A stretch of 33,045 bases of DNA from Actinomycetota bacterium (GTDB lineage Bacteria; Actinomycetota; Actinomycetes; Nanopelagicales; Nanopelagicaceae): positions 1-33,045 of the forward strand of contig JAQBVO010000014.1 in assembly GCA_027728065.1 (NCBI GenBank), given 5' to 3'. Shown piece after piece: positions 11,045-23,997 of this stretch (position 1 is its first letter; each line of letters starts with the position of its first letter). The notes under the pieces were generated by a model, which saw only the letters and a list, made by a program, of their open reading frames with translations, had not been told where the DNA came from and did not search any database. The translations under genes were made by a program, and so were the position numbers.

Positions 11045-11118
11045 GGGGCGGTAGCTCAGTTGGTTAGAGCCCCGGACTCATAATCCGGTCGTCGTCGGTT
11101 CGAGCCCGACCCGCCCCA
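11045..11118 (+). tRNA. tRNA-Met (anticodon CAT)
   Basis: A 74-base cloverleaf folds completely. The acceptor GGGGCGG pairs with CCGCCCC, then discriminator A. D-arm GCTC/GAGC, anticodon stem CCGGA/TCCGG around CTCATAA, and T-arm GTCGG TTCGAGC CCGAC follow. CCA is not encoded. The G-C acceptor pairs and elongator-like D-arm argue against initiator tRNA. A lysidine-modified tRNA-Ile2 also has a CAT anticodon and cannot be excluded without modification-enzyme determinants. Its last nine bases start the 61-bp repeat that recurs at 22067, so it marks the left edge of the island. Confidence 0.93.
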
Positions 11119-11170
11119 CTCACAAGACTATTAACTCATCTCTTAAGGGCAGTTGGATTTAATCTTCTTC
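11110..11170 (+). repeat. Left copy of the 61-bp island-flanking direct repeat (att-like)
   Basis: It begins with the last nine bases of the tRNA-Met gene and runs 52 bases beyond. Aligned without gaps to 22067-22127 it has 56 identities and five substitutions. The shared segment includes ATTAACTCATCTCTTAAG (exact in both copies) and the last four codons plus stop of a minus-strand reading frame. The arrangement, intact tRNA on one side and a copy of its 3' end on the far side, is that of island integration at a tRNA gene. Confidence 0.85.
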
Positions 11171-11230
11171 CTCCTTAGAATCACCATCAAATGCAGCACT
11201 TTTTAGCTGGGAAGTAGTTAGTACATCAGA
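11159..11230 (-). pseudogene. C-terminal relic resembling the end of the DUF2231/cytochrome b5 gene
   Basis: On the minus strand the frame ending at the TAA 11161-11159 reads TTSQLKSAAFDGDSKEEED. It occupies the position, relative to the repeat, that the C-terminus of the 22116-22943 gene (QSKKTIAPPSAGYEDD) holds at the right border. The stop codons correspond exactly (offset 10957). Identity falls off quickly beyond the repeat, with only a few conserved residues. I read it as the cut-off tail of a diverged copy of that gene, carried in or left behind when the island formed. The frame is open into the neighbouring SDR stop region. It could instead be chance open frame. Confidence 0.4.
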
Positions 11231-12000
11231 CTTCCGCCGCTGACATTGAGCGTAGCACCGTTGATGAATGACGAGTTATCGGATGCTAGAAAAATCACTG
11301 CCCGTGCCAACTCTTCTGGCTGGCCAATGCGACGAAGAGGACATGCAGCCGTTGCGGCGGCAATAATTTTGGGGTCATTGTCATTATGTTGCATCGGCGT
11401 ATTAATCTGGCCGGGTGATAAGACATTTACCCGAATTCCATGTGGTCCAAATTGCCCAGCAAATCCCCGAGTCATGGTAACAATTCCCCCTTTTGCGGCC
11501 ACATATGCATCGCTGCCATTTACAGGACCCGTCATCCACGCACCCGAGGTGCAATTAATTATTCGCCCTGGCGTCTTACGCTCAATCATTGCAGCCCCCG
11601 CCGCGCGATTGAGGAAAAATCCAGATCGCAGATTTACATTAAATTGATAATCCCAATCATCTTCTGTCACTTCCGCAAGTTTCTTGCGTCGAAGACCTCC
11701 TGCAATATGGGCTAAAACAAATATTTCCCCATATACATCTAGGGTCTTATCAATAATTGCCTCACAAACTTCACTAGTTTGAAGATCTGCGACATGGAAA
11801 AAATGCCGTGATGGATCTTGCATCTCCTTGGCTAAAGAATCCAGCTGTGCTTGATTACGCGCTGTCGCAAAGACTCTTGCACCGACAGCATCGAATAGAA
11901 GAGCGCTTGCACGCCCAATCCCACTCGAAGCTCCAGTAACTACAACTACTTTATCCTCTAACCCAAAGCCTAAAGAAAGATCACTCCGATTAGAAGGCAT
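11218..12000 (-). CDS. SDR family oxidoreductase (island operon, last gene)
   Basis: NAD(P)-dependent short-chain dehydrogenase of 260 aa from the chosen ATG at 12000. It has the cofactor loop VTGASSGIG, an AHIAGG strand in place of NNAG, the catalytic Ser in INCTSGAW and YVAAK with Tyr and Lys, then RVNVLSPGQI and a GATLNVSGG end. The open frame reaches 12090, but the extra 30 residues overlap the upstream enolase-superfamily gene and lack family similarity. The start used overlaps that gene by 11 bases. As part of the operon it probably oxidises or reduces a hydroxyl of the intermediate made by the dehydratases. The substrate is not inferable. Confidence 0.9.
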   Translation of the reverse strand: MPSNRSDLSLGFGLEDKVVVVTGASSGIGRASALLFDAVGARVFATARNQAQLDSLAKEMQDPSRHFFHVADLQTSEVCEAIIDKTLDVYGEIFVLAHIAGGLRRKKLAEVTEDDWDYQFNVNLRSGFFLNRAAGAAMIERKTPGRIINCTSGAWMTGPVNGSDAYVAAKGGIVTMTRGFAGQFGPHGIRVNVLSPGQINTPMQHNDNDPKIIAAATAACPLRRIGQPEELARAVIFLASDNSSFINGATLNVSGGSLMY

Positions 12001-13132
12001 ATTTGGCAAGGACCTTTTCGTTGACATTAATACCAAGTCCTGGTTTGTTAGGAACGCCGATGCTTCCATTTTCGGCAACAAATGGCTCATCTACTAACTC
12101 ATGTTGCATTGGGTTCTCATCGGGTTTTAGTTCTTGCAATAAGCAACGTGGGGTTGAAGCTGAGAGTGCAATAGAGGCAGCTGTATTTACAGCGCTCGAC
12201 CACGCATGGCTGTTAAACCATAATCCGGCAGCTTCTACAAGCCGAATAATGTCAAGGGCTCCGGTGATGCCCTCAACACGTCCGACATCGCAACCAATGA
12301 CATCGAGAGTGCCTGAATTAATTACTTCGGTATAACCGCGGTAGTCCCACTCGCGCTCACTACCAGCAAACATAGTCGTACTATGTTGGCGCAGTTTGCG
12401 GAAATGCTCAAACTCCCATGGTTCAAATGGCTCTTCTACCCATTTAAGGTCTTGCTCTTCCCATGCCTGCACACGAGCAATAGTTTCATCAACGGTCCAG
12501 TTAAGGGACTGACCACGATCCATCATGATCCATGCCTTTGGCCCAGCTGCAGCTCGTAAGTCCTTTACGAATTTGATGTCACGATCGATGTCATAACCGA
12601 CGCGAGCATCTCCACGCTTGCCCATACCAATTTTAAATCCAATATAACCGTCCTTAACAAACTTTTCATGACGCGCAACTTCAACATCCAAATTAGCATT
12701 AAACACATGCGTCGAAGCCAGTACCGGCAATCGTGTATCGGGCGCAGCATCGCGCTTGCCTATCATCTGTATGAGGGATTGACCAATAATTTTTCCTTTG
12801 AGATCCCAGAGGGCAATATCAATAGCAGAGAGTGCAAAATGTGCTAGACCTCCACGATATGAGTACCACCAGGTCTGCTTGCGGATATCTCGCCAGATGC
12901 CAATATTTTGTGTTGGATCTTTACCAATTAGATCATCAGTCAAAGCCTTGATGATTTCTACCGTTCCGCGAGTGCTACCTGGGAACTGTGTAATTGCCTC
13001 CCCCCAACCAACGTGCCCATCAGTTGATTCGATGCGCACAAAGGTGAGAAAACGCATGGAGTTATTATCATTTGGCTCTGGGTAAGTAACAGGATGAACC
13101 GTTACTCGCGCGATTGTTGGAACGTTTGCCAT
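11990..13132 (-). CDS. Enolase-superfamily (mandelate racemase group) enzyme, probable acid-sugar dehydratase 2
   Basis: 380 aa with the MR/MLE N-terminal capping domain (about 1-130) and TIM barrel. Visible active-site positions are GFKIG with Lys167, Asp205 in WIMMDRGQ, Glu233-234 in WVEEPFEPWE, Glu259 in AGSERE, Asp282 in GCDVGRVEG and His309 in NSHAW. The Asp-His pair is that of the mandelate racemase subgroup, which abstracts a proton next to a carboxylate. Most relatives dehydrate aldonates to 2-keto-3-deoxy acids. The first Lys of the usual KxK is Gly165 here, and the residue after the first metal ligand is Arg rather than the usual Ala-Asn. Specificity is therefore open. GGGAG lies upstream of the ATG. 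It overlaps the SDR start. Confidence 0.88.
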   Translation of the reverse strand: MANVPTIARVTVHPVTYPEPNDNNSMRFLTFVRIESTDGHVGWGEAITQFPGSTRGTVEIIKALTDDLIGKDPTQNIGIWRDIRKQTWWYSYRGGLAHFALSAIDIALWDLKGKIIGQSLIQMIGKRDAAPDTRLPVLASTHVFNANLDVEVARHEKFVKDGYIGFKIGMGKRGDARVGYDIDRDIKFVKDLRAAAGPKAWIMMDRGQSLNWTVDETIARVQAWEEQDLKWVEEPFEPWEFEHFRKLRQHSTTMFAGSEREWDYRGYTEVINSGTLDVIGCDVGRVEGITGALDIIRLVEAAGLWFNSHAWSSAVNTAASIALSASTPRCLLQELKPDENPMQHELVDEPFVAENGSIGVPNKPGLGINVNEKVLAKYAF

Positions 13133-13163
13133 TTCCTTCTCCCTTTTTACTCTCTGCTGATTA

Positions 13164-14111
13164 TTATTTGAGATCTTCTGGGTAAGCAGGCTGCATCTCT
13201 GCAGTTGTTACCCACCCACTTCGTGCATGGATAATTCTCTGTATTGAATTTGCCACCATATTTTGAGAGCCCACTTGTGAGCCAATACCTGGCTTGAGTT
13301 GGGTAGTTTGAAAGACCTTGCCATCAAGGGATAGTTCGATTTCATCTATGGCGCTCTTCCCAAGTGAAGGTAGATCAATATGGCCATAAAAGTGGGATGT
13401 AAACCAAATCTTGCCATTAACATAGGCGCTGTATGTTTGATTGACGCCAGCGCTCTCACCCGCACGAACGGTAAATCTTCCAGGCAAATCTATTTCTTTC
13501 TCACTAATGACTGGCAATAATTCTTTAGAAATCTTTTCAATGTTGAGCCCCATAGCCGTTGCGACAACGCTCATGGATTGCGGGAATCCTGCGTGCCCCA
13601 AGATCTCTTCCTTAGCGACCGCTTCTGCAAATGTTGCTGGAGTTTTGCCCAGGCCAATACGGCCTAAAACAGTTGCACCAAACCCTGCGATGCTCACAGT
13701 GCGACGTACCACAACTGTGCAACCTCGGGGCGCTGCACCTAGCAATGTTAAAACTAGTGAATCAAAAATAAGTCCAGGGTTAACGCCGGTGCCTGCAATG
13801 GAAACAGATTTGGATTTAGCTAGCGCATCAAGATCGTCGGCTCGCTTTGCATCAACTGCCCATGGATAGGCACACTCTTCGGCAGAGACTAGAACATTTG
13901 AGCCAGCTTTTACTGCTCGCTCGATATCGTTTGCGACATCTTTAAAACGAGTGGTAGTTGCGATGATGACAACGTCGGCACCTGATTCAAGAGCTTTGCC
14001 ACTTGCATCTCTACCAAAAGGTCCTAGTACTTTGTGGTGTGCGATATCAGAGAGCAACTGCGAAACAGTTGTTCCTAACTGACCATGACCATAAATCGCA
14101 ATTGTTGCCAT
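13164..14111 (-). CDS. DapB-like NAD(P)-dependent dehydrogenase
   Basis: 315 aa. The N-terminal Rossmann fold has the glycine-rich IAIYGHGQLG loop, a VVIIATTTRFKDV strand and a region like dihydrodipicolinate/2,4-diaminopentanoate dehydrogenases (NVLVSAEECAYPW, then GTGVNPGLIFDSLVLTL). The C-terminal half resembles the DAP_DH_C-type domain of 2,4-diaminopentanoate dehydrogenase. This is not lysine-biosynthetic DapB: the DapB signature and a lysine operon are absent. It lies between the two enolase-superfamily genes, with AGGGAG seven bases before the ATG. A role in oxidising or reducing a keto or imino intermediate of the island pathway is likely. The reaction is not known. Confidence 0.75.
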   Translation of the reverse strand: MATIAIYGHGQLGTTVSQLLSDIAHHKVLGPFGRDASGKALESGADVVIIATTTRFKDVANDIERAVKAGSNVLVSAEECAYPWAVDAKRADDLDALAKSKSVSIAGTGVNPGLIFDSLVLTLLGAAPRGCTVVVRRTVSIAGFGATVLGRIGLGKTPATFAEAVAKEEILGHAGFPQSMSVVATAMGLNIEKISKELLPVISEKEIDLPGRFTVRAGESAGVNQTYSAYVNGKIWFTSHFYGHIDLPSLGKSAIDEIELSLDGKVFQTTQLKPGIGSQVGSQNMVANSIQRIIHARSGWVTTAEMQPAYPEDLK

Positions 14112-14134
14112 CTTCGTCTCCCTTTAAGGCCTGC

Positions 14135-15250
14135 CTATTTATCGACGCGATATTGCGCGATGAAATCTTCATCGAGCTCCCAACCAAATCCAGGAGCATC
14201 AGGAAGAACAAATTCACCATTTACCAAGGGTTGGCGATTTGCGAGCATTTCCCAGAAAATCGGATCGCGAGTAGGAGAAAATGATTCAACATAGGTTCCG
14301 TGAGGTACTGAAGCGAGTAGGTGTGATGCAACTTGTGCTTCTTCATGGTGACCTAGTTGCACATCAAAAGAGGCTGCAAGGGCTGCCACCCGACGCCACT
14401 CAGTTGGTCCGCCACCCCATGATGCATCGTAATTACACACATCGATTGCGCCGTTAACCATCATCTCACGCATGCCAACACGAGAGATTTCACTCTGTCC
14501 TGCAGCAACATTGACATTTCCGCGAAGACGAATGTCGCGAAGTCCGCGCCAATCAGCATGCCAACGAGTTGGCTCTTCAAACCAACGCAGGGGAATTTCA
14601 CCCTCAATATGAGAAAGGAAATTAATAGCTTCATTGACGGTGTATCCCTGGTTGGCGTCAACAACAAATACAAAGTTATCGCCAACAATTGACTTTGCCA
14701 AACGAAGACGTGCTGCATCTTCCTCAGGTGGTTTAGCACCAATCTTAAATTTCATTCCAACCATGCCAATTTCATCTTTAAAGAATCCAAGTTCGCGCTC
14801 TAAATCTGCTTCACTTGAACCGTAATAGCCGCCGATTCCAATCATTGGAATACGATCGCGGAATCCGCCCCATAATCGCCAAAGTGGTTGATTAGTGTAC
14901 TTACCAAATGCGTCCCATATTGCGCTATCAACGCAGGCAATTGCTTGCATAGGAATTGCGCGGTCTCGTAACTGATCCAAAGTTACGGGCACCATTGCAT
15001 GCCAGATTTTTTCTACTTGTCGTGAATCCATTCCAGTAACAAGAGGTGCAATCTCATCATGAATGATTGCGAGAACCTCATTCTGCTCTTCATCTGTGTC
15101 GGCGTTATAACTCTGGCCAACGATGCCATCAGATGTTGTGATGCGCGTAATGACTGTGCATCGGTTGCGCATCTTGTAATACGACCCTTTATACAAGTGC
15201 TTCAGCGGCACTCTTATTGGAATCGTTTCGATTTTCTCTATTTTGGACAT
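14135..15250 (-). CDS. Enolase-superfamily (mandelate racemase group) enzyme, probable acid-sugar dehydratase 1
   Basis: 371 aa with a full mandelate racemase-group active site: MKFKIG (Lys167 and Lys169), VDANQG (Asp198, Asn200), WFEEP (Glu225-226), AGQSE (Glu254), NYDASWGGG (Asp275) and GHHEE (His301/302). A KxK base on one face and an Asp-His pair on the other permit racemisation or syn-dehydration of a 2-hydroxy acid. In gene clusters with dehydrogenases, such enzymes usually dehydrate sugar acids. It differs clearly from the second enolase-superfamily protein of the operon, so the two probably act on different substrates or epimers. GAGGGA seven bases before the ATG is a good ribosome site. 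The lipoyl gene lies 19 bases upstream. Confidence 0.9.
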   Translation of the reverse strand: MSKIEKIETIPIRVPLKHLYKGSYYKMRNRCTVITRITTSDGIVGQSYNADTDEEQNEVLAIIHDEIAPLVTGMDSRQVEKIWHAMVPVTLDQLRDRAIPMQAIACVDSAIWDAFGKYTNQPLWRLWGGFRDRIPMIGIGGYYGSSEADLERELGFFKDEIGMVGMKFKIGAKPPEEDAARLRLAKSIVGDNFVFVVDANQGYTVNEAINFLSHIEGEIPLRWFEEPTRWHADWRGLRDIRLRGNVNVAAGQSEISRVGMREMMVNGAIDVCNYDASWGGGPTEWRRVAALAASFDVQLGHHEEAQVASHLLASVPHGTYVESFSPTRDPIFWEMLANRQPLVNGEFVLPDAPGFGWELDEDFIAQYRVDK

Positions 15251-15269
15251 GGTGATTCCCTCTTCCCGC

Positions 15270-15509
15270 TTACTTACCTTCGCAAATTACAATCGCTTCA
15301 CCTGTTTTAATCTCGCCGCCTTCCTTGAAGAGCAGTTCAAGAATCGTTCCAGCAATTGGCGATGGAACTTCAACTGTTGCCTTATCTGTTTCAACTTCCA
15401 TAATCATGTCACCAGCAACAATCGTGTCACCGACCGCCACCTTCCACGCAACTAAGTAGACCTCATCAACGGTGTCACCAACGCGTGGCATTTTGATTGT
15501 CATCTTCAT
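15270..15509 (-). CDS. Free-standing lipoyl-domain protein
   Basis: 79 aa consisting of one biotinyl/lipoyl domain. The lipoyl-lysine motif is EVETDKATVEV with Lys43, and SPIAGTI and KEGGEIKTGEAI form the surrounding hairpins. ETDKA is the form found in E2 subunits of 2-oxo acid dehydrogenases, so lipoate rather than biotin is expected. The E2 linker, peripheral-subunit-binding and acyltransferase domains are absent, and the TAA follows the domain immediately. Its ATG overlaps the E1-alpha stop (TAATG). It should carry acyl groups formed by the E1 encoded next to it. How they reach CoA or another acceptor is not visible here. Confidence 0.9.
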   Translation of the reverse strand: MKMTIKMPRVGDTVDEVYLVAWKVAVGDTIVAGDMIMEVETDKATVEVPSPIAGTILELLFKEGGEIKTGEAIVICEGK

Positions 15510-16507
15510 TAGCGACCGACCTTTGCAGGTGTGAAAATGTTTTGGAACATAGAGGCTAAATTTGGCTCAGGGGAGGCTTGGCATGTTGCGACAACTTTCT
15601 CGATAGTCGCCTTCATATCTGATTGGATTTTGGCAATCTTCTCAGCGTTAAGTGCACCACTTGCTACTAGGCTTTCTTCAGTGAGCTTGATTGGATCGCG
15701 CTTCTGCCATTTCTCTAATTCACCCTCTGGACGATAGAGAGCTTGGTCTGCACGTGAGTGCCCCGCAAAACGATACGTCTTAGCTTCAATAAGAGTCGGT
15801 CCGCCACCGCTACGTGCGCGATTAACGGCTTCTGTAACTCCCTTTTGAACTACTCCTATATCCATGCCATCTAGCGAAAAGTGCGGCATATTGTAGCTAT
15901 CGGCACGCATATGAAGATCTTCGATGGGAGTCGTAATATTGATGCGAGAATATTCTCCGTAAACGTTGTTATCACAAATGAAAACTACTGGAAGGTTCCA
16001 GATAGAGGCCAAGTTAAGAGTTTCATGGAAGGCGCCGATATTTGCAGCACCATCTCCAAAAACAGCTACCGCAACATCATCTGTTTTGCGCACTTGGAAA
16101 GAAAGTGCCGCGCCTGCAGCTATTGGCATACCTCCACCGATAATTGCAGATGTTGGAAGCAATCCAAGATCCATATTGCTTAAGTGCATCGAACCACCAA
16201 CGCCACCACAGCAACCAATTGTCTTACCCATGATCTCACCCAAGACAGCTTCTGGACTTAAACCAAGTGCAAGAGCGATTCCGTGGCCACGATAAGTTGC
16301 AGAGACGATATCCGTTGGACGCAAGACACTTGCTAATCCAACTGCGAGCGCTTCTTGCCCTAGGCATAGATGAGTGGTTCCGCGGATTAAACCAGCGGCA
16401 AAAAGACCGTTAATCTGCTCTTCGAACTCACGAATTTCGATCATTCGTTCATATTGAGCTACGGAATCTTCTTGTACCGCTTTGCGACGTTTGAGTTCTA
16501 CCGACAT
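15509..16507 (-). CDS. Thiamine-diphosphate 2-oxo acid dehydrogenase E1, alpha subunit
   Basis: 332 aa. Decarboxylates a 2-oxo acid on thiamine diphosphate and transfers the acyl group to a lipoyl arm. The ThDP motif is GDGAANIGAFHETLN (GDG at 151-153) closing with Asn180-181 in ICDNNVYGE. TYRGHG and YRFAGHSRADQALYRPEGE match the acetoin/pyruvate-type E1-alpha family. The start overlaps the E1-beta stop by one base (TAATG), and a nine-residue N-terminal extension of the frame was rejected. Substrate may be pyruvate, but a sugar-acid-derived 2-oxo acid made by the two dehydratases is more consistent with the operon. Confidence 0.92.
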   Translation of the reverse strand: MSVELKRRKAVQEDSVAQYERMIEIREFEEQINGLFAAGLIRGTTHLCLGQEALAVGLASVLRPTDIVSATYRGHGIALALGLSPEAVLGEIMGKTIGCCGGVGGSMHLSNMDLGLLPTSAIIGGGMPIAAGAALSFQVRKTDDVAVAVFGDGAANIGAFHETLNLASIWNLPVVFICDNNVYGEYSRINITTPIEDLHMRADSYNMPHFSLDGMDIGVVQKGVTEAVNRARSGGGPTLIEAKTYRFAGHSRADQALYRPEGELEKWQKRDPIKLTEESLVASGALNAEKIAKIQSDMKATIEKVVATCQASPEPNLASMFQNIFTPAKVGR

Positions 16508-17523
16508 TATTTTAAGCCTTCCAATTCCCACCAAGATTTCGGAGAAGTTCCAGATTTGAATGATTCGATCAACTGACGAGCAACATCATCGGCTGTTGGA
16601 ACAAATCGCGCTTCAAGAACACCGCTATAAGGAACTGGTACGTCTGGAGTAGTAATACGAAACGGTGCTCCTTTAAGTTGACTAAATAGTTCTGACGTAG
16701 CTGCAGCCACGATTTCTGAGCCCCATCCACCGCTCTTGGGGGCTTCTTCTACGACAACTAGACGACCAGTTTTTTTAACTGAAGCAAGCACGCCTTCACG
16801 ATCCCATGGAACCACTGTTGCAAGATCAATAAGTTCTACGTCCAGGCCAGATTTTTCAATTGCGTTTCGAGCAACATTAACCATTTGGCCAAGAGCTACG
16901 ACAGTAATATCAATTCCCTTGCGTAGAACTCGCGCTTTCCCTATTGGGAGTGACAAAGAGGTATCAACTTCTCCACGTTCTGCGTAAAGAATGCGTGGCT
17001 CAAGAATCATGACTGGATCTGGATCTTGAATCGAAGCACGCATTAATGAGTACGCAGATTGCGCGTCACTTGGACAGACAACTTTTAAACCGGGAGTTGC
17101 TGCAACCCAGTTTTCAAGAGTTTGTGAATGTTGGCAACCAAAACCAAGTCCAGAACCTACTGATGCGCGCACGACCATAGGCACAGAAAGCTTGCCATTG
17201 CTTAGGTAGCGCATCTTTGCAGCCTCAGTTACGAGTTGATCAAGTGCAACTCCAAGGAATTCCATAAACATGATTTCGACAACGGGCTTCATACCCATAA
17301 TGGCCGCACCAACTGCTGCGCCAGTAAATCCCATTTCAGAAATAGGAGTATCGCGAATTCGAAGCGGCCCGAACTCAGCAAGCAAACCTTCTGAAGTTTT
17401 AAATGGACCTTCAGCTTCTGCTACATCCTCACCAAATAACATGACAGTCGAATCTGCTCGCATCTCATCGGCAAGGGCGCTAACAATCGCCTGTCTAAAT
17501 CGCATTGGTGTGGTTGTACCCAT
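16507..17523 (-). CDS. Thiamine-diphosphate 2-oxo acid dehydrogenase E1, beta subunit
   Basis: 338 aa transketolase-like beta chain, partner of the alpha chain downstream. Family features are FGEDVAEAEGPFKTSEGL, RDTPISEMGFTGAAVGAA, EIMFMEFLGVALDQL, then the C-terminal domain with ELIDLATVVPWDREGVLASV and VVEEAPKSGGWGSE. The end after VPYSGVLEARFVPTADDV is a little longer than average. It is the first gene of a seven-gene minus-strand operon. GGGAG about eight bases before the ATG is a strong ribosome site. A TATA-rich stretch in the 98-bp divergent spacer probably holds the promoter. Confidence 0.92.
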   Translation of the reverse strand: MGTTTPMRFRQAIVSALADEMRADSTVMLFGEDVAEAEGPFKTSEGLLAEFGPLRIRDTPISEMGFTGAAVGAAIMGMKPVVEIMFMEFLGVALDQLVTEAAKMRYLSNGKLSVPMVVRASVGSGLGFGCQHSQTLENWVAATPGLKVVCPSDAQSAYSLMRASIQDPDPVMILEPRILYAERGEVDTSLSLPIGKARVLRKGIDITVVALGQMVNVARNAIEKSGLDVELIDLATVVPWDREGVLASVKKTGRLVVVEEAPKSGGWGSEIVAAATSELFSQLKGAPFRITTPDVPVPYSGVLEARFVPTADDVARQLIESFKSGTSPKSWWELEGLK

Positions 17524-17621
17524 CTCACTCCCTCTATCGCTGCCTCAATTGCTCAATATATGCCCCAACTGGAATCGTTGCTAGAATATTCTCGTGAGCC
17601 CAATGAAGTCAAGCCCGAGCT
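17524..17621. promoter_or_regulatory. Divergent promoter region of the E1 operon and the CoA-transferase gene
   Basis: The 98-bp spacer drives the seven-gene operon leftward and the CoA-transferase gene rightward. CATATATT (minus strand, about 17555-17562) is a candidate -10 for the operon. AGAATATTCT at 17583-17592 is a perfect 10-bp palindrome. GAATCGTTG at 17572-17580 recurs at 18788-18796 upstream of the LacI gene, so it may be part of a shared operator. None of these is proven. Confidence 0.4.
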
Positions 17622-18752
17622 ATGCCACCATCTGAGGCACTTGGATCAAACTTGCCTCTTTTTGGGGTCAAAGTTTTAGATGCCACCTCCAATATTGCAG
17701 GCCCCTTCAGTGGCGCGGTTTTAGCAGACCTAGGCGCTGAAGTCATCAAAATTGAAACCCCTAGCGGTGATCCCGCCCGAGCGATGTCCCCTATCGATGG
17801 GGATCGGTCGGCATATTTCCATGTGGTCAATCGCAATAAGAGCGCTATGAGCATCGACCTGAAATCAAAAGAAGGTCGAGCAAAGCTAGATGGAATGCTT
17901 GATGAGTGTGATGTTTTCTTGACCAATTTTCTTCCAGAGAGATTGCAGGCTCTGGAACTAACCTCCCTCGAGTTACGGGCAAAGCGACCTCGATTGATCT
18001 GCGGCAATCTCTCCTCATATGGAGTCGAAGGACCAGATGCAGCAGCACCCGGTTATGACGCGACAGTGCAAGCGCGCACTGGAATCATGCATGTTACAGG
18101 CGAGCCCGATGGCAATCCCGTCCGTGCCGGAGTATCTGTTTTAGATATCGGTGGAGGAATGTGGCTAGCCATTGGAGTGCTTGCGGCATTGGTCAAACGC
18201 GATAGGACTGGAGAAGGAGGCGTTGTAGAAACCTCTCTCTTTGAAACTGGCGCTCTTTGGGTAAGTTATCATTTATCTGCCAACCAACTTACAGGTAAAG
18301 CCTCAGTGCGATCTGGTGCAGGTCATCCAGCCTTTTCCCCCTACGGACTCTTCACAACATCCTCTGGCACATTATGCATAGGTGTCGGTAATGACAATAT
18401 TTTCTCGAAGCTTTGCACGTTGATTAATCGGAGTGATCTATTAAGTGATGTGCGATTTAGAACAAATTCCGATCGTGTTACCCATGCGGCAACACTAAAA
18501 GTTGAGATTGAAAATGCACTTGCAAGTAATGACGCAGTGCACTGGGCGCGAATATTAGGTGGGGGCGGAGTACCTGCTGATCGCGTTTCGCTACCTGAAG
18601 ATCTTCGCGACGATTACCAAGCTCAAGCAATGACAATCTTGCTTAATTACCCAGATCCAACAACTCAATTGGAGCAAATTCCAGGACTTCCACTCCGCTT
18701 CGATGGCAAGCGACCACCCATCCGCTTCCCCGCTCCTCACCTAGAGCACTAA
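17622..18752 (+). CDS. CoA-transferase, class III (CaiB/BaiF family)
   Basis: 376 aa, transfers CoA between organic acids through an aspartyl-CoA intermediate. The N-terminal LPLFGVKVLDATSNIAGPFS, the LGAEVIKIETPSGDPAR segment and the catalytic Asp146 in GYDATVQARTG fit the family. GGGMWLAIGVLAAL and HPAFSPYGLF follow as usual. Only ATG 17622 is available because an in-frame TGA lies at 17604-17606, and no clear ribosome site precedes it, so the transcript may be nearly leaderless. It diverges from the E1 operon, which suggests that the acid it activates belongs to the same pathway. The donor and acceptor are unknown. Confidence 0.9.
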   Translation: MPPSEALGSNLPLFGVKVLDATSNIAGPFSGAVLADLGAEVIKIETPSGDPARAMSPIDGDRSAYFHVVNRNKSAMSIDLKSKEGRAKLDGMLDECDVFLTNFLPERLQALELTSLELRAKRPRLICGNLSSYGVEGPDAAAPGYDATVQARTGIMHVTGEPDGNPVRAGVSVLDIGGGMWLAIGVLAALVKRDRTGEGGVVETSLFETGALWVSYHLSANQLTGKASVRSGAGHPAFSPYGLFTTSSGTLCIGVGNDNIFSKLCTLINRSDLLSDVRFRTNSDRVTHAATLKVEIENALASNDAVHWARILGGGGVPADRVSLPEDLRDDYQAQAMTILLNYPDPTTQLEQIPGLPLRFDGKRPPIRFPAPHLEH

Positions 18753-18828
18753 GTCAGTTGATTATTTCTCCGCCTGAAACCCCATGTGAATCGTTGACAC
18801 ACATCCTGTTAGCCTCTCTAGAGTCTGC

Positions 18829-18903
18829 TTACTCACGGGAGGTGGGCACAAATAGCAAACGATCCTGTTCGGCCTCAATACCTATGATTCTTAGATCTAT
18901 CAT
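18829..18903 (-). CDS. Possible 24-residue ORF with a near-perfect ribosome binding site
   Basis: The minus strand of the 266-bp spacer before the LacI gene contains AGGAGGAG six bases in front of an ATG, the strongest Shine-Dalgarno in the window. The ORF MIDLRIIGIEAEQDRLL continues FVPTSRE to TAA. A second frame from about 18853 leftward stays open for 24 more codons (PPVSKQTLERLTGCVSTIH and on), so this may be a gene broken by a frameshift. The product is not recognised. It diverges from the LacI gene and converges on the CoA-transferase. It could be a genuine small protein or the stump of a replaced gene. Confidence 0.4.
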   Translation of the reverse strand: MIDLRIIGIEAEQDRLLFVPTSRE

Positions 18904-18938
18904 GGCTATCTCCTCCTAATTTTGCTCTGGCAATTTTA

Positions 18939-18961
18939 CTGGAAATATGTCAAAATTCCAG
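18939..18961. promoter_or_regulatory. Inverted repeat upstream of the LacI gene, candidate operator
   Basis: CTGGAA-N11-TTCCAG is an exact 6-bp inverted repeat, and several inner positions also match. It is followed directly by AATCGGTTCC, a near-palindrome centred on CG as LacI-family operators usually are. It lies 58 bases before the chosen LacI start and next to the start of the divergent small ORF, a natural site for autoregulation. There is no experimental or motif-database support. Confidence 0.35.
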
Positions 18962-19018
18962 AATCGGTTCCATTATGAGTAATACCTATTTGCTCCCGCG
19001 AACAGGGGTGTGAGAGTT

Positions 19019-20041
19019 ATGTCTGAGGAAACATTTACCGGCAAGATTACCATTCGCGATGTTGCAGTTCGGGCAGGAGTTGCTCTTTCAAGTGTCTCTC
19101 GAGTTATGTCAGGTCATCCTGATGTATCACTTGCAATGCGTGCGCGCGTTGAGGAAGCTGTTTCAACTCTTGGTTATGAACCAGATCTAATAGCGCAATC
19201 ATTGCGCAGCGGAAGTACGAGGATAATTGGATTTATCATCCGCGATATTTCAAATCCACTTTATGCATTAGTTGCCCGCGCATGCGAACAAGAGTTACAG
19301 CGTCATGGGTATTCGATGATCTTAATGAATTCAGATGCAAACATTGAAACCGAATCGAAGAATTTCCAAATTATGCGCCGCCGCCGAGTAGATGGTGTGA
19401 TTGCCTCTCTCGTTGACGAAGGTGATCCGTCAGTCAAGAAGTCACTAATTTCATTGAATGCTGCAATAGTTTTACTTGACCGCGAAGTTAAAGGGATACA
19501 CACAAGTGCCGTTCTTACTAATCACTATCAAGGGGTTTATGAGGCTACAAAACATCTAATAGACGCTGGGCATACAAAAATCGGCTTTGTTACAGGAGAT
19601 GAGAACGTTTATACAACCCGCAATCGTATGCGGGGATTTAAACAAGCTTTCGGCGATATAGGTAAGGAAATTGATGAATCGTTTCTTGCCTTAGGTGGCT
19701 TCGACGCGGAATATGCTTTTGTGCACACTCACAATCTAATGACAAGCCAGCCTCGGCCAACAGCATTAATGACTGGTGGAATTAGTTCAACTTGGGGCGC
19801 ACTTCGAGCGCTCAAAGAGATAGGCCTTAAAGTTGGTGAGGATTTGGCTTTTGTTGCTCTGGATGAATGGCCTTTGTTTGACATTTTTTCACCAGAGATT
19901 TCTTGCGTGTATCGCGACGCACGAACAATTGGTGCAGAATCCGCGCATATGATGTTACAAATTCTCAAGAGTGGGGTACAAAAAAAGTTAATAATAGAAA
20001 CAAAATTTACCGCTCGATTTAGTTCGGGGGGCGGTTTGTAA
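19019..20041 (+). CDS. LacI/GalR family transcriptional regulator
   Basis: 340 aa. The N-terminal helix-turn-helix is TIRDVAVRAGVALSSVSRVM, followed by the hinge helix LGYEPDLIAQSLRSG (about 51-65) and a periplasmic-binding-protein-like sensor (from RIIGFIIRDISNPLYALV). ATG 19019 is preceded by AGGGG with a 10-base gap. GTG 19010, three codons earlier, is the alternative. LacI regulators normally sense sugars or their phosphates and repress the linked catabolic genes. As the only regulator in the island it probably controls the E1 operon, the CoA-transferase and perhaps the alcohol dehydrogenase pair. The inducer is unknown. Confidence 0.93.
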   Translation: MSEETFTGKITIRDVAVRAGVALSSVSRVMSGHPDVSLAMRARVEEAVSTLGYEPDLIAQSLRSGSTRIIGFIIRDISNPLYALVARACEQELQRHGYSMILMNSDANIETESKNFQIMRRRRVDGVIASLVDEGDPSVKKSLISLNAAIVLLDREVKGIHTSAVLTNHYQGVYEATKHLIDAGHTKIGFVTGDENVYTTRNRMRGFKQAFGDIGKEIDESFLALGGFDAEYAFVHTHNLMTSQPRPTALMTGGISSTWGALRALKEIGLKVGEDLAFVALDEWPLFDIFSPEISCVYRDARTIGAESAHMMLQILKSGVQKKLIIETKFTARFSSGGGL

Positions 20042-20098
20042 CGAGTCGTCAAGGGACGAACTTTAATAAACACTTACTCTAAATATAATTTAATTAAG

Positions 20099-21211
20099 TT
20101 AGTACGGGTGAATTACTTGCCTTACTACTTGAGCACTTTGAAGAGCGTCCATTGTTTCATTAACTTGAGACATCGGGCTAACGGATGTGAGTAGCTTTTC
20201 TACTGGCAGTTTGCCTGCTCTCCAAAAATCTACAAATTCAGGTATATCTACGCGGGGATTTGCAGAGCCAAGGTAGGAGCCGCGGATTGTTTTCACATCT
20301 GAGACTAAAGACAATGCCGAAATTGAAAACATCTCTGACGCTGGAGGCAATCCAACGGTGACAGTTATTCCTCCACGACTTGTGGCCTCATATGCCGATT
20401 TCAACGTATCTGCACGTCCCGCACATTCGATAGCAACGCCAACACCTGCAGGGAGTTGATCGCGCAAGTTCTCACGCGGGTCGAGTGCAAAATCTGCACC
20501 AAGTGAGAGCGCAAGTTCTCTCTTAGAGGCAACTGGATCGATAGCAAATATGGGAGATGCTTTAGAAATGACAGCACCAATCAATGCAGAGAGGCCAACA
20601 CCACCAAGTCCCCATACTCCAAGAGATTGACCCTCTTTTGTGTGAGCAGAATTTCGAACAGCGCCAATACCTGTAAGTAGAGCGCAACCAAAGAGTGCTG
20701 CAATATCGAAAGGAATGTCATCAGGAAGTTTAATCAGTGAACGCTCATCAAGAACTGCATACTGGCTATAACAAGAAACTCCGTTGTAGTGATTAACAGG
20801 TGCGTTGTTAAAACTTATTCGTGATCCCCCTTCTATCATTTCACCACGTGCATTAGACGCTGCACCGATTGAGCAAAATGCGGGTGTGCCCCATAGACAT
20901 TCGCTGCATGTGCCGCAACTAGGCAAGAAAATACTTGTTACGTGGTCACCGACTTTAAGGTTTTTCACGGCGGCACCAAGTTCGACCACCACGCCGGCTG
21001 ATTCGTGTCCGCCAACAAGGGGAAGCGGACGTTGTCGAGTTCCATTAACCACTGAAAGATCTGAATGACAGATACCAGCCGATTCAATTTTAACTAGCAC
21101 CTCACCGGCTCGAGGTGGCGCTAGATCAATCTCAACAATTTCAAGTGGGCGAGATCTTGCATAAGGAAGAGGCGCTCCACTTTCCCGAATGAGCGCAGCA
21201 AGTGATTTCAA
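20099..21211 (-). CDS. Zinc-dependent alcohol dehydrogenase (MDR superfamily)
   Basis: 370 aa. Catalytic zinc ligands are Cys48 (GICHSD), His69-Glu70 (GGHES) and Cys176 (FGCALLTG). Structural zinc cysteines are 99, 102, 105 and 113 (CGTCSECLWGTPAFC). The NAD loop is GLGGVG at 201-206. The full set resembles class III-like and mycothiol-type alcohol dehydrogenases. The frame opens with TTG, with GGAG five bases upstream and no nearby ATG, so a TTG start is proposed. It is 15 bases behind the SDR gene and probably co-transcribed. It converges on the LacI gene. Likely role is oxidation of a primary or secondary alcohol in the island pathway. Confidence 0.92.
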   Translation of the reverse strand: MKSLAALIRESGAPLPYARSRPLEIVEIDLAPPRAGEVLVKIESAGICHSDLSVVNGTRQRPLPLVGGHESAGVVVELGAAVKNLKVGDHVTSIFLPSCGTCSECLWGTPAFCSIGAASNARGEMIEGGSRISFNNAPVNHYNGVSCYSQYAVLDERSLIKLPDDIPFDIAALFGCALLTGIGAVRNSAHTKEGQSLGVWGLGGVGLSALIGAVISKASPIFAIDPVASKRELALSLGADFALDPRENLRDQLPAGVGVAIECAGRADTLKSAYEATSRGGITVTVGLPPASEMFSISALSLVSDVKTIRGSYLGSANPRVDIPEFVDFWRAGKLPVEKLLTSVSPMSQVNETMDALQSAQVVRQVIHPY

Positions 21212-21226
21212 AGAAACTCCAAGTTC

Positions 21227-21985
21227 TTAGACTCTTAAATCAATGGTAGCGCCACCATCAACGACGATGGTTTGCCCATTGATATATGAGGCTCCTTTAG
21301 ATGCCAAGAAAACAACGACCGATGCTTGCTCCTCAGGCCGCCCCATACGTTTGATTGGCACGGCTTGAGCAAATGCTTCAGAGCTAACTTCTTTGCCATC
21401 AACAAAAACGCGATTCTGCGTCTTAGTAAACCCAGGTGCTACTGCAACTACACGAATATTGTCAGGGGCCCACTCAACTGCAAGAACCCGAGTCAATGCT
21501 TCGAGTCCGGCTTTTGATACCGAATAAGAAAGGCGGCCTGGCAGACCAATGCGCGCAGCAATTGATGCAATCGAAATAATTGTCGGGTAAGGAGATTTCT
21601 TTAGATGTGGATAAGCAGCACGACAACAGCGAAACGCACCATCAAGATGCACATTTGTTATAAAACGCCAATCTTCATCACTATATGTGTGCGTTGCGCC
21701 TTGACGGAAGTTTCCTGCATTATTTACCAATACATCAAGGTGACCAAAACGTTTGATAATCTTTGCTATACCTTGATCTACAGATTCAGTCGATCCAACA
21801 TCAATGGAGACTGTAAAAACGCGATCACCCGTTGGATCTAATCCTCTTGCAACTTCTTGCGCTGCATCCTCTCGAAGATCAGAGACAACAACGTCATAAC
21901 CATCTGCAAGGAATTGCTTACACATTTCTGAGCCGAGGGCTCCGCCACTTCCCGTTACTAAGGCCACTGGGCGAGATAAACTCAT
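21227..21985 (-). CDS. SDR family oxidoreductase (island, right end)
   Basis: 252-aa classical short-chain dehydrogenase: cofactor loop TGSGGALG (11-18), NNAGN, catalytic Ser in ISIASIAAR, YSVSK, VAPGFTKTQ and the C-terminal YINGQTIVVDGG. It differs clearly from the SDR at the left end of the island. No Shine-Dalgarno precedes the ATG. A 7-bp inverted repeat (22008-22029) lies 23 bases upstream and may be an operator. With the alcohol dehydrogenase downstream it could carry out two successive oxidations of a polyol or sugar. Substrate is not inferable. Confidence 0.92.
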   Translation of the reverse strand: MSLSRPVALVTGSGGALGSEMCKQFLADGYDVVVSDLREDAAQEVARGLDPTGDRVFTVSIDVGSTESVDQGIAKIIKRFGHLDVLVNNAGNFRQGATHTYSDEDWRFITNVHLDGAFRCCRAAYPHLKKSPYPTIISIASIAARIGLPGRLSYSVSKAGLEALTRVLAVEWAPDNIRVVAVAPGFTKTQNRVFVDGKEVSSEAFAQAVPIKRMGRPEEQASVVVFLASKGASYINGQTIVVDGGATIDLRV

Positions 21986-22007
21986 CTAGTAAGTGAATCA
22001 GTAAGGA

Positions 22008-22029
22008 CCCAATTAGACAAGCAATTGGG
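22008..22029. promoter_or_regulatory. Inverted repeat upstream of the right-end SDR gene
   Basis: CCCAATT-N8-AATTGGG is an exact 7-bp inverted repeat between the SDR start (21985) and the right flanking repeat (22067). No T-run follows on either strand, so an operator is more likely than a terminator. Confidence 0.35.
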
Positions 22030-22066
22030 CGGCTCAAGTATGGCGAAGATCCCATAAATGGTAGCG

Positions 22067-22127
22067 CCCGCCCCACTCGCAAGATTATTAACTCATCTCT
22101 TAAGAGCAGTGGGATTTAATCGTCTTC
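22067..22127 (+). repeat. Right copy of the 61-bp island-flanking direct repeat (att-like)
   Basis: It matches 11110-11170 at 56 of 61 positions. It starts with the last nine bases of the tRNA-Met (CCCGCCCCA) but nothing before it resembles a tRNA. Its right end encodes the stop and last residues of the DUF2231/cytochrome b5 gene. CTCTTAAGAG inside it is a perfect palindrome here and imperfect in the left copy. Confidence 0.85.
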
Positions 22128-22943
22128 GTATCCAGCACTGGGTGGTGCAATAGTTTTTTTACTCTGCTCTAAAGTAATTTGGCCGCCGACTGGGCCCAAT
22201 AGGAAACTTCTCAAAAAATCATTGGGCTTGGCTTGAGTGCCGTGCTGACCAGTAAATGCCTTCGTACCATCCTTTCCACAGATATCTGAGATTACCGATA
22301 CCCCACCAGGATGCTCTTGAATAAAACTCGTTAAGTTATAGACATTTCCATTAACAATGCTCCAGCAAGCAGAGGCAGAGTTTCGCAGTGTGACCTGCGA
22401 ATTTGAGAGCTCAACTGCTCCCTCACTTGTCGATCCAGAGGCTGTGCCGCCTTGGCTTTTAGAATCCTCTAGCGCAACCCCGCCAGTGGTGGCAATTCGA
22501 TCCTTCCAGGTCGCTGTTGCCCCTGAGTGGCCGACGATAAAGGTAAGAGCAAAACTAGTTACGGATAATACCGTTGCAATTAGTTTTAAAGAGTTTTGTA
22601 TAAAAGCTCGATTATTTCTTAATTTAATTCTGGATTTGTCAATGAGAAACCATAGTAAAAAAATGAATGTGAGTCCAAGTAGAACTTTTGGTAACCGTTC
22701 ACCTTGCGCGGCATGGGCGCTGGGTAGACCAACTCGTTGCGATAACTCCTGGCCAGATTGTTCGGCAATAAATGCAGAGACTGTTGCTGCCGATAAGATG
22801 ATCAAGACAAGAGGAGTGTAATTGGCCCGTAATCTGGGAGTGAATACAACTAAGAGAACTCCGAGCCCGGCCAGTGGAGCAAGCACGACAACGGCGTGGG
22901 TAACGAGTGGATGGATCGGTAATCCTTGAATCAAATCAAACAA
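22116..22943 (-). CDS. DUF2231 membrane domain fused to a cytochrome b5-like heme domain
   Basis: 275 aa. Four predicted transmembrane helices (about 15-35, 44-61, 86-102, 118-138) form a DUF2231-like domain, including the GHSGA motif after the last helix. After a Ser/Gly-rich linker (about 150-185) comes a cytochrome b5-like domain with VYNLTSFIQEHPGGVSVI (His211) and a second candidate heme ligand in TGQHG (His234). The paired Cys193 and Cys222 may form a disulfide. Orientation suggests an extracytoplasmic heme domain, so an electron-transfer role at the membrane is likely. The start is TTG with GGAG eight bases upstream. The C-terminus lies inside the island's right repeat. Confidence 0.8.
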   Translation of the reverse strand: MFDLIQGLPIHPLVTHAVVVLAPLAGLGVLLVVFTPRLRANYTPLVLIILSAATVSAFIAEQSGQELSQRVGLPSAHAAQGERLPKVLLGLTFIFLLWFLIDKSRIKLRNNRAFIQNSLKLIATVLSVTSFALTFIVGHSGATATWKDRIATTGGVALEDSKSQGGTASGSTSEGAVELSNSQVTLRNSASACWSIVNGNVYNLTSFIQEHPGGVSVISDICGKDGTKAFTGQHGTQAKPNDFLRSFLLGPVGGQITLEQSKKTIAPPSAGYEDD

Positions 22944-23142
22944 GACCTAACTCCCTTGTGCGCTAACAGAGTGCGATAGTAACAGTGAACAGAGATATTA
23001 GATGCTACGGCGCGCTTTCTAGAGGCAGGTGTGCTTTAGGTGTGATGTACATCGCGCATTTTTTTAGGCCGCTGGTACAGGGGATTTTTTACCCTCTTAA
23101 AACGTAGTACCACTCATTACCAATTTCATGTCATAGTTATCT

Positions 23143-23997
23143 ATGGCTCAAAACAATCGCATCATCAAGAAATGGAGCATGAGAGATACTAAACATTGCA
23201 TCGTTGTACCAACAGATTTAGATCAAAAATACTCTCGTGGCGTACTAGGAATAATTACCGGTTCTGCGCAGTATCCAGGTGCAGCGGTTCTAACAACATC
23301 GGCGGCGGCGGCAACAGGTCTTGGCCTGATTCGTTTCTATAGCTCCTCTGGATTAGCACATTTAGTTTTACACACAACTCCCTCGGCAGTTGTACAGCCT
23401 GGAAAGGTTTCGGCCTGGTTAATCGGCTCTGGTATTCCTAGCGACAAATACTTAAATTTCTCAACGTGGCTCCGTCACCGTTGGTTCAAACTAGCCTACC
23501 TACAATCTATGCCCACTCTGCTTGATGCCGGCGCACTTGAATTAGCCGGTAGTCTTGAGCAGCCGACCTTGATTACGCCACATAGTGGTGAGCTCTCACA
23601 ACTATTAACGCAGCGAGGTGTACCTGTATCGGTTGAAGCTATCGAAGGTGATCCGAAAAAGTGGGTACAGGTGGCAGCATCTACACTCGGCGTGACTGTA
23701 CTACTCAAGGGTGCGCGGACTTTAGTTGCTAATGATGAGATTTTGATTGAACTGCCAGTTGCAACTCCATGGTTAGCAACTGCTGGCAGTGGAGATGTGT
23801 TGGCGGGCATTATTGCTGCATTGATTGCTACAAATACTATTAATATATTAAACGATCCAAATCATTTAGCGCAGGTAGCAGCAGCTGGTGCTTTTATTCA
23901 TTCATCTGCGGCAAAGATTGCCTCTAGGGGTGGCCCTATCTCTGCCGAGATGCTTGTGACGGGAATCTCTGGGGCCATCATTCAAACACTCAAATAA
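23143..23997 (+). CDS. nnrD: ADP-dependent NAD(P)H-hydrate dehydratase
   Basis: 284 aa of the ribokinase-like NnrD family, which repairs hydrated NADH and NADPH. KYSRGVLGIITGSAQYPGAA matches the family entry, followed by TPHSGE (145-150), LLKGARTLV and the catalytic loop AGSGDVLAG with Asp218. The NnrE epimerase domain often fused in front is absent, so the epimerase must be separate. ATG 23143 has no ribosome site. Met13 (MRDTKH) is a reasonable alternative with GGAG just upstream but very close. Upstream is a 199-bp spacer in which I found only a 10-bp palindrome at 23044-23053. Confidence 0.9.
   Translation: MAQNNRIIKKWSMRDTKHCIVVPTDLDQKYSRGVLGIITGSAQYPGAAVLTTSAAAATGLGLIRFYSSSGLAHLVLHTTPSAVVQPGKVSAWLIGSGIPSDKYLNFSTWLRHRWFKLAYLQSMPTLLDAGALELAGSLEQPTLITPHSGELSQLLTQRGVPVSVEAIEGDPKKWVQVAASTLGVTVLLKGARTLVANDEILIELPVATPWLATAGSGDVLAGIIAALIATNTINILNDPNHLAQVAAAGAFIHSSAAKIASRGGPISAEMLVTGISGAIIQTLK

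Follow-up and report, generated by a model that had tools for sequence, protein, structure and literature searches.

A variable metabolic island beside a tRNA-Met gene in Candidatus Planktophila, with a 61-bp repeat as a candidate attachment scar

Introduction

In a 33,045-nucleotide stretch of actinobacterial DNA (NCBI GenBank assembly GCA_027728065.1, contig JAQBVO010000014.1; hereafter the window, which is contig C26 of its own genome of about 1.4 Mb, G000), a set of catabolic genes lies between two copies of a 61-nucleotide repeat, one of which starts within the 3' end of a tRNA-Met gene. How did these genes come to be there, and where does the added segment end? A sequence-only reading had proposed an 11-kb catabolic island, bordered by the repeat and lacking an integrase, that was either an old insertion or had been exchanged between relatives by homologous recombination. 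We compared the locus with its counterparts in the genus, taken here as Candidatus Planktophila. The explanation that we prefer, with a confidence a little better than even, is that the window holds an additive flexible island, that the 3' part of tRNA-Met is a recurrent insertion site in this genus and that the repeat of the window is most likely an attachment scar, either eroded or of the 3'-end type.

Results

The repeat and its tRNA-Met target

A repeat search of the window recovered the 61-nt direct repeat at 11110-11170 and 22067-22127, identical at 56 of 61 positions (92%) and with a spacing of 10957. It is the longest direct repeat in the window, the runner-up being 31 nt at 71%. BLAST of the tRNA plus its flank against the window also matched the second copy (E 1.4e-20), so that both searches agreed with the repeat as first described. 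The 61-mer has two matches in the window's own genome (1,396,558 bases, 45 contigs), both inside the window; it is not a dispersed genome-wide repeat. ARAGORN identified a single tRNA, an intact tRNA-Met (CAT) at 11045..11119 on the + strand, which is the presumed insertion target. Because this gene ends at 11119, the left copy comprises 10 bases of the tRNA and 51 bases beyond its 3' end. The right copy overlaps the stop codon and the last three codons (22116-22127) of a gene on the - strand (22116..22943) for a protein with DUF2231 and cytochrome b5 domains (Pfam PF09990 and PF00173), hereafter the b5 gene. On the left side, an open frame that ends in the repeat (11159..11198, - strand, about 13 codons with a stop and an acidic tail) is a possible remnant of a gene 3' end; it had no relatives among the loci collected at that stage.

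The right copy had been described as lacking a tRNA body. ARAGORN found no second tRNA there, but a weak trace of a collapsed body upstream of the right copy appeared in an end-anchored alignment; 17 of 2000 shuffles and 14 of 1639 stretches elsewhere in the window scored at least as high. An unanchored local test, which had been run first, was non-significant, its score being equalled or exceeded in 232 of 2000 shuffles and at 221 of 1982 places elsewhere in the window, and a decayed tRNA at this position was not retained, the signal being both weak and post hoc. No similarity was detected between the two sides of the repeat beyond the 61 bp. When the 51-base non-tRNA block was searched alone, the window was the sole match among 80 loci, and viral contigs gave none. 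The tRNA plus its flank likewise had no full-length relative in 135 genomes; only in G119 did the match continue, gapped, for about 27 bases. The tRNA-Met allele itself is identical over 76-77 query bases to those of G044, G041, G105, G107 and G116, and differs in the anticodon stem from those of the sister species G054 and G017.

The site across the genus

The search of the 135 genomes with the tRNA plus flank gave matches in 128. We fetched 100 loci from 93 other genomes which, with the window, made 101 loci from 94 of the 135. Counts below refer to the 69 of these 94 genomes in which tRNA-Met and a right-flank gene lie on one contig; second loci of seven genomes were left uncounted, and G126, whose contig begins inside the tRNA, was excluded. 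The recurrent left flank consists of DUF3145 and an M23 peptidase (PF01551; 10252..10854 on the - strand of the window, assigned also by synteny), and the recurrent right flank of NAD(P)H-hydrate dehydratase (NNRD; PF01256 and synteny; 23143..23997, + strand), a regulator, GH25, GlpD, GlpK and GalT.

Between these flanks, 54 genomes were filled with 0.95-15.2 kb (median 6.3 kb), 13 were empty (less than 400 bp) and two were special: G020 has just a 3' half-tRNA before NNRD, and in G017 the cargo lies on the other side of an intact tRNA. Six of the empty sites had an NNRD match starting 9-42 bp after tRNA-Met, as measured to the start of the tblastn match and not to the start codon; in the other seven the regulator came next, with no NNRD match between. 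In the fetched stretch, 8 of the 13 showed M23 to the left of the tRNA and NNRD or the regulator to its right. For G071, scored as empty, the contig starts 55 bases before the tRNA and the left side is unseen.

Since the simplest empty site is tRNA-Met followed by NNRD, as in six genomes, the b5 gene is itself an addition and the island reaches about 1 kb further right than the repeat. The stretch between the tRNA 3' end and NNRD in two clade-mates, G027 (empty) and G020 (half-tRNA), aligned with the window at 23.10-23.14 kb (MAFFT and inspection, made without a significance test), and the whole segment, b5 gene included, is therefore an addition. The short block just before NNRD, at 23100..23142 on the + strand, is the probable true right border of insertions. 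The variable segment of the window thus redefined spans about 11120-23100 (12 kb), and the repeat marks an internal boundary, between the catabolic cargo and the b5 gene. The earlier placement of the border at the right repeat copy, some 11 kb from the tRNA, consequently has to be given up, and relatives in which tRNA-Met directly precedes the b5/DUF2231 gene, which it had led one to expect, were found in 0 of the 69 genomes.

The prediction that relatives would carry different cargo between the same flanks was borne out. Open reading frames of at least 100 aa, called mechanically, formed 81 families; 37 of these were seen once, and no family reached more than half of the occupied loci. No family was common to the two members of 1141 of 1378 locus pairs, and 93 pairs shared at least half. 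The Pfam families among 102 representative proteins include ABC sugar transport, GFO/IDH/MocA, LacI, GH43 and 2-keto-3-deoxygalactonokinase (25 of 162 families listed). The same site with different content in relatives and conserved flanks, which together define an additive tRNA-targeted flexible island, was thus found across the 69 genomes, and the proposal of a catabolic island inserted at the tRNA-Met 3' end is supported.

Occupancy was mapped onto a phylogeny of 64 genomes, built with FastTree from five flank proteins. Among the 61 genomes scored, occupancy changes at least 8 times, compared with 9-11 times for shuffled labels, and is therefore nearly free of kinship; the value of 8 is the same with and without G126. 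The tRNA allele type (six types, 61 genomes scored) changes at least 14 times, compared with 33-40 for shuffled labels. The allele is therefore mostly inherited, yet it changes more often than six types require, and in the window's clade of seven there are four allele types among the six genomes scored. General swapping of tRNA alleles is unsupported by these counts. As a separate observation, 1257 bp at this hotspot in locus L004 of G003 are freshly duplicated in tandem (99.9% identity) and include two intact tRNA-Met genes.

Half-tRNA scars and mirror-image junctions

We scanned 99 loci downstream of the tRNA for its 3'-end 17 bases, allowing at most one mismatch (L108 and L109, with too little tRNA, were skipped). 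In 10 of the 99, the tRNA-Met 3' end occurred again on the tRNA strand. The opposite strand gave 0 of 99, and shuffled 17-mers gave 0 in each of 20 rounds over 1.17 Mb. Integrase crossovers take place within anticodon and T loops. The longer scars, in G028, G082, G108, G087, G120 and G103, start at about 27-35 of the 75-base tRNA gene (anticodon at 35-37), that is, in the anticodon stem-loop, as do those of G020 and G014, which stand outside the ten-locus count. The short scars of G114, G040 and G061 start at 53-59, in the T-loop region, and that of G022 starts at 48, between the two groups. Some scar arms are common to different genomes: G108 and G087 share a 1.3-kb element (85% identical), and G020 and G014 share an arm. 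The lone 300-aa protein of the G087 element was considered as a recombinase and dropped, having no Pfam or PHROG match.

A mirror-image junction was found in G017 and G113, in which a 5' half-tRNA stops at the same loop and gives way to a shared 62-bp arm (87%, E 6e-16) that is absent from all others of the 135 genomes searched. This arm, in loci L023 (G017) and L139 (G113), holds the palindrome AATCAACTTGATT, and G017 has an intact tRNA at the other end. Further 5' half-tRNA matches, in G069 and G071, were discarded because they proved to be contig ends. Where scars exist, site-specific insertion at tRNA-Met is the best explanation for them.

Two tRNA-Met-like 3' halves were also seen in G003 far from the gene (locus L149, G003:C1:36001-56000), at record positions 46772-46806 and 48130-48176, where they bracket a 1.4-kb stretch. 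They match at 88% over 42 bases and 79% over 47, and lie 0.37 Mb from the tRNA (413-415 kb). Cassettes closed by half-tRNAs may thus exist away from the target tRNA, in a region that, from its sequence, is taken as an envelope-sugar island. An ACGC motif at a fixed distance before the crossover was examined as a common signal and occurred in 5 of 10 arms, or in 4 of 8 once near-duplicates had been discarded (a level reached in 1 of 2000 shuffles), one G003 arm having been found through the motif itself. When each family was represented by a single arm and the two G003 arms were omitted, it occurred in 3 of 6, a result reached by 144 of 5000 shuffles, and a search of the 135 genomes gave 4 hits compared with 2 for the reversed control. 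We keep the motif as a lead only.

Recombinases in the genome

The window's genome has eight tyrosine-recombinase matches; other genomes with a match have one to five. XerC and XerD presumably account for the two strongest, and five of the remaining six tyrosine integrases (L085-L090, on other contigs) adjoin tRNAs, namely those for Tyr, Asn, Thr, Val and Lys. None of the eight lies in the window. Serine recombinase PF07508 was found in 3 of the 135 genomes and in none of them at the tRNA-Met locus.

Layout and cargo of the window

The GC content along the island, 44-49%, is similar to that of the flanks, and there is therefore no signal of foreign composition. Adjacent to the possible gene-end remnant lies a catabolic cassette (11218..18752; Pfam and NCBIfam) that encodes an SDR, two enolase-superfamily dehydratases, a DAP_DH_C-type dehydrogenase, E1 alpha and beta subunits of the 2-oxo acid dehydrogenase type and a family III CoA-transferase. 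It is followed by genes that Pfam assigns to a LacI-family regulator (19010..20041, +), a zinc alcohol dehydrogenase (20099..21211, -; 85% in the G017 island) and a second SDR dehydrogenase (21227..21985, -; 90% in the G017 island). Because the NCBIfam scores shown for the cargo lie below their cut-offs, its substrate cannot be named. An inverted repeat, CCCAATT/AATTGGG, at 22008-22029, just upstream of the second SDR gene, is possibly an operator or a hairpin.

The cassette block recurs at about 83% DNA identity in two loci of metagenome-assembled genomes, L115 (11199-17139) and L116 (11199-18747), away from the tRNA-Met site; the tRNA and the conserved flank genes were not found beside it there. 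In G017 it is present at tRNA-Met with 80% DNA identity, inverted relative to its neighbours. The DNA homology begins at 11199 (L115, L116) or 11212 (G017) and ends at 18747 (L116) or 18743 (G017), the L115 locus stopping earlier. The idea that the cassette is unique cargo was rejected, since relatives of its dehydratase occur in 24 of the 135 genus genomes and in 24 named-record loci (including Phytohabitans), many with other neighbours; a dehydratase match occurs in NZ_CP016774.1, Candidatus Planktophila versatilis. Four loci with the dehydratase or the cassette (L115, L120, L132 and L136) come from metagenome-assembled genomes titled Streptomyces griseus or Bifidobacterium breve, which appear to be aquatic actinobacteria under wrong names. 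The b5 protein has 48-52% relatives in G068, G069 and G132, encoded on different contigs or well away from the tRNA; those at 34-36% in G118 and G099 adjoin NNRD in the opposite orientation.

Discussion

We favour a model in which metabolic gene blocks enter between tRNA-Met and NNRD. Some of these blocks would leave the tRNA intact and place a 3' piece of it at the distal end of the insert, and pieces that start at the anticodon loop or the T-loop are the pattern expected of a crossover of the tyrosine-recombinase type, although the enzyme itself is deduced. The window would then consist of two layers, the b5/DUF2231 gene beside NNRD and the catabolic cargo between the b5 gene and the tRNA, with the second insertion bordered by the 61-bp repeat, which is most likely an attachment scar, either eroded or of the 3'-end type. 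Because no recombinase was found in the island, the enzyme would have acted in trans or been lost.

Several results weigh against this model. The window's repeat carries just the last 10 bases of the tRNA and 51 bases past it, compared with about 17-49 tRNA bases and 0-8 past it in the scars of the genus, and no genome of the window's own species was found among those searched. Of the 54 occupied loci whose contig includes a right-flank gene, just 3 have a scar (G114, G040 and G120) and 51 have none, while the other seven scars sit on contigs that end before any right-flank gene. For several scars on short contigs (G108:C53, G087:C137, G082:C28, G020:C43, G014:C41 and G113:C41), the assignment to a genome is possibly wrong. 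No linked recombinase was detected when the eight proteins of the window's own genome were used as queries against 5939 open frames from the 101 loci (phmmer E 0.001, HMM E 0.01), in agreement with the integrase-free site first described; the eight queries matched one another as a positive control, and a very divergent recombinase would escape. Relaxing the threshold to E 1 gave, as the best other match, one 98-aa frame at E 0.037. Moreover, 10 of 13 single-contig genomes have just two tyrosine-recombinase matches, presumably XerC and XerD. The locus thus has the tRNA border of a tycheposon without a detected tyrosine recombinase, and the linked tyrosine or serine integrase of an integrase-bearing integrative element was found in none of the 101 loci.

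Could the cargo instead have arrived by homologous recombination? DNA of a relative, as a circle or a fragment bearing the tRNA end and the end of a b5-like gene, might have recombined with the resident copy, or the island might have been replaced through its core flanks, in either case leaving diverged copies. This is possible, though we hold it to be less probable than not by some distance. The 8% difference between the repeat copies and the run of the repeat into a gene end are what it would predict, as is the possible remnant after the left copy, whose acidic tail is also found in b5 relatives. It would account for the occupied loci that lack a tRNA scar, and the cargo is 80-95% identical in amino acid sequence to that of G017, near the 69-89% of the flank genes. 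The mixture of tRNA alleles in the window's clade would be in keeping with an exchange of the tRNA and its neighbourhood, though alleles are mostly inherited along the tree. However, the matching block is only 61 bp long with nothing similar detected beyond it, neither the 80 loci searched nor the viral contigs yielded another copy of the 51-base block, and the 135 genomes had no full-length relative of the tRNA plus flank. On the choice originally offered between an old insertion and homologous exchange, the half-tRNA scars of some relatives demonstrate site-specific insertion at this tRNA, but the window taken alone does not separate the two, and for the 51 scarless occupied loci both scar decay and homologous exchange are possible. 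A quite unlikely course is that the tRNA 3' end and the gene after it were duplicated in tandem, the copies later being split by cargo and the second tRNA body deleted. The fresh duplication of G003 occurred at this very locus, and the collapsed-tRNA trace before the right copy would be its relic; the lack of similarity between the two sides beyond the repeat and the failure of that trace in the unanchored test argue against it.

An extension of site-specific insertion, which we regard as unlikely, is a cassette system free of linked integrases. Here the anticodon loop of one tRNA-Met would be the shared recombination site, and the cassettes would carry either a 3' half or a 5' half together with the flank upstream of it. 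Their recombination would depend on a resident or helper enzyme working in trans, with an occasional swap of the tRNA allele. Cassettes with a 3' half would keep the tRNA at the left and those with a 5' half would rebuild it at the right, as in G017; half-tRNAs would also close cassettes in the distant second island of G003. Such a system might be somewhat like an integron with half-tRNA cassette ends.

Returning to the additive island that we prefer, tRNA-targeted islands of this kind are already known from other aquatic bacteria, and the Planktophila tRNA-Met site is a further case. PMC7771536 describes the additive fGI1 and tRNA-repeat islands of Candidatus Actinomarinales, also streamlined aquatic actinobacteria in which tRNAs are targets for small cassettes of conserved position and variable content. 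The main island there holds envelope sugars and involves five tRNAs, whereas the Planktophila site has largely metabolic cargo and a single tRNA-Met, with some breaks at the anticodon and T loops and with mirror-image junctions. The same text credits envelope islands in Nanopelagicales to earlier work. In Candidatus Methylopumilus, the additive fGI-2 has repeats of the last 20 bp of tRNA-Lys (PMC10872708). As here, a streamlined freshwater genus has repeatedly received insertions of varying size that are marked by tRNA 3'-end repeats, but the phylum and the tRNA are different and the proteins are mostly of unknown function. Tycheposons are likewise cargo elements with a tRNA-Met border in streamlined plankton bacteria; PMC10872708 characterises them by a tyrosine recombinase gene, none of which was found at the Planktophila site. 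In the tRNA islands of the Islander database (PMC4383910), the island restores the split tRNA and the displaced fragment marks its far end, which resembles the scars described here. Those islands are catalysed by a tyrosine integrase, whereas no integrase was found here and the fragment in the window has just 10 tRNA bases. No paper naming this tRNA-Met site in its title or the available abstract portion was found, and the available passages of PMC12381374 do not mention it; an earlier description may exist.

The site lies in an abundant freshwater genus with cultured members, in which metabolic blocks differ by species and empty, filled and half-filled versions occur side by side. A concrete question thereby becomes open to experiment: by which recombinase, if by any, cargo-only cassettes are inserted into the tRNA genes of integrase-poor streamlined bacteria, and whether or not the tRNA gene is replaced during insertion.

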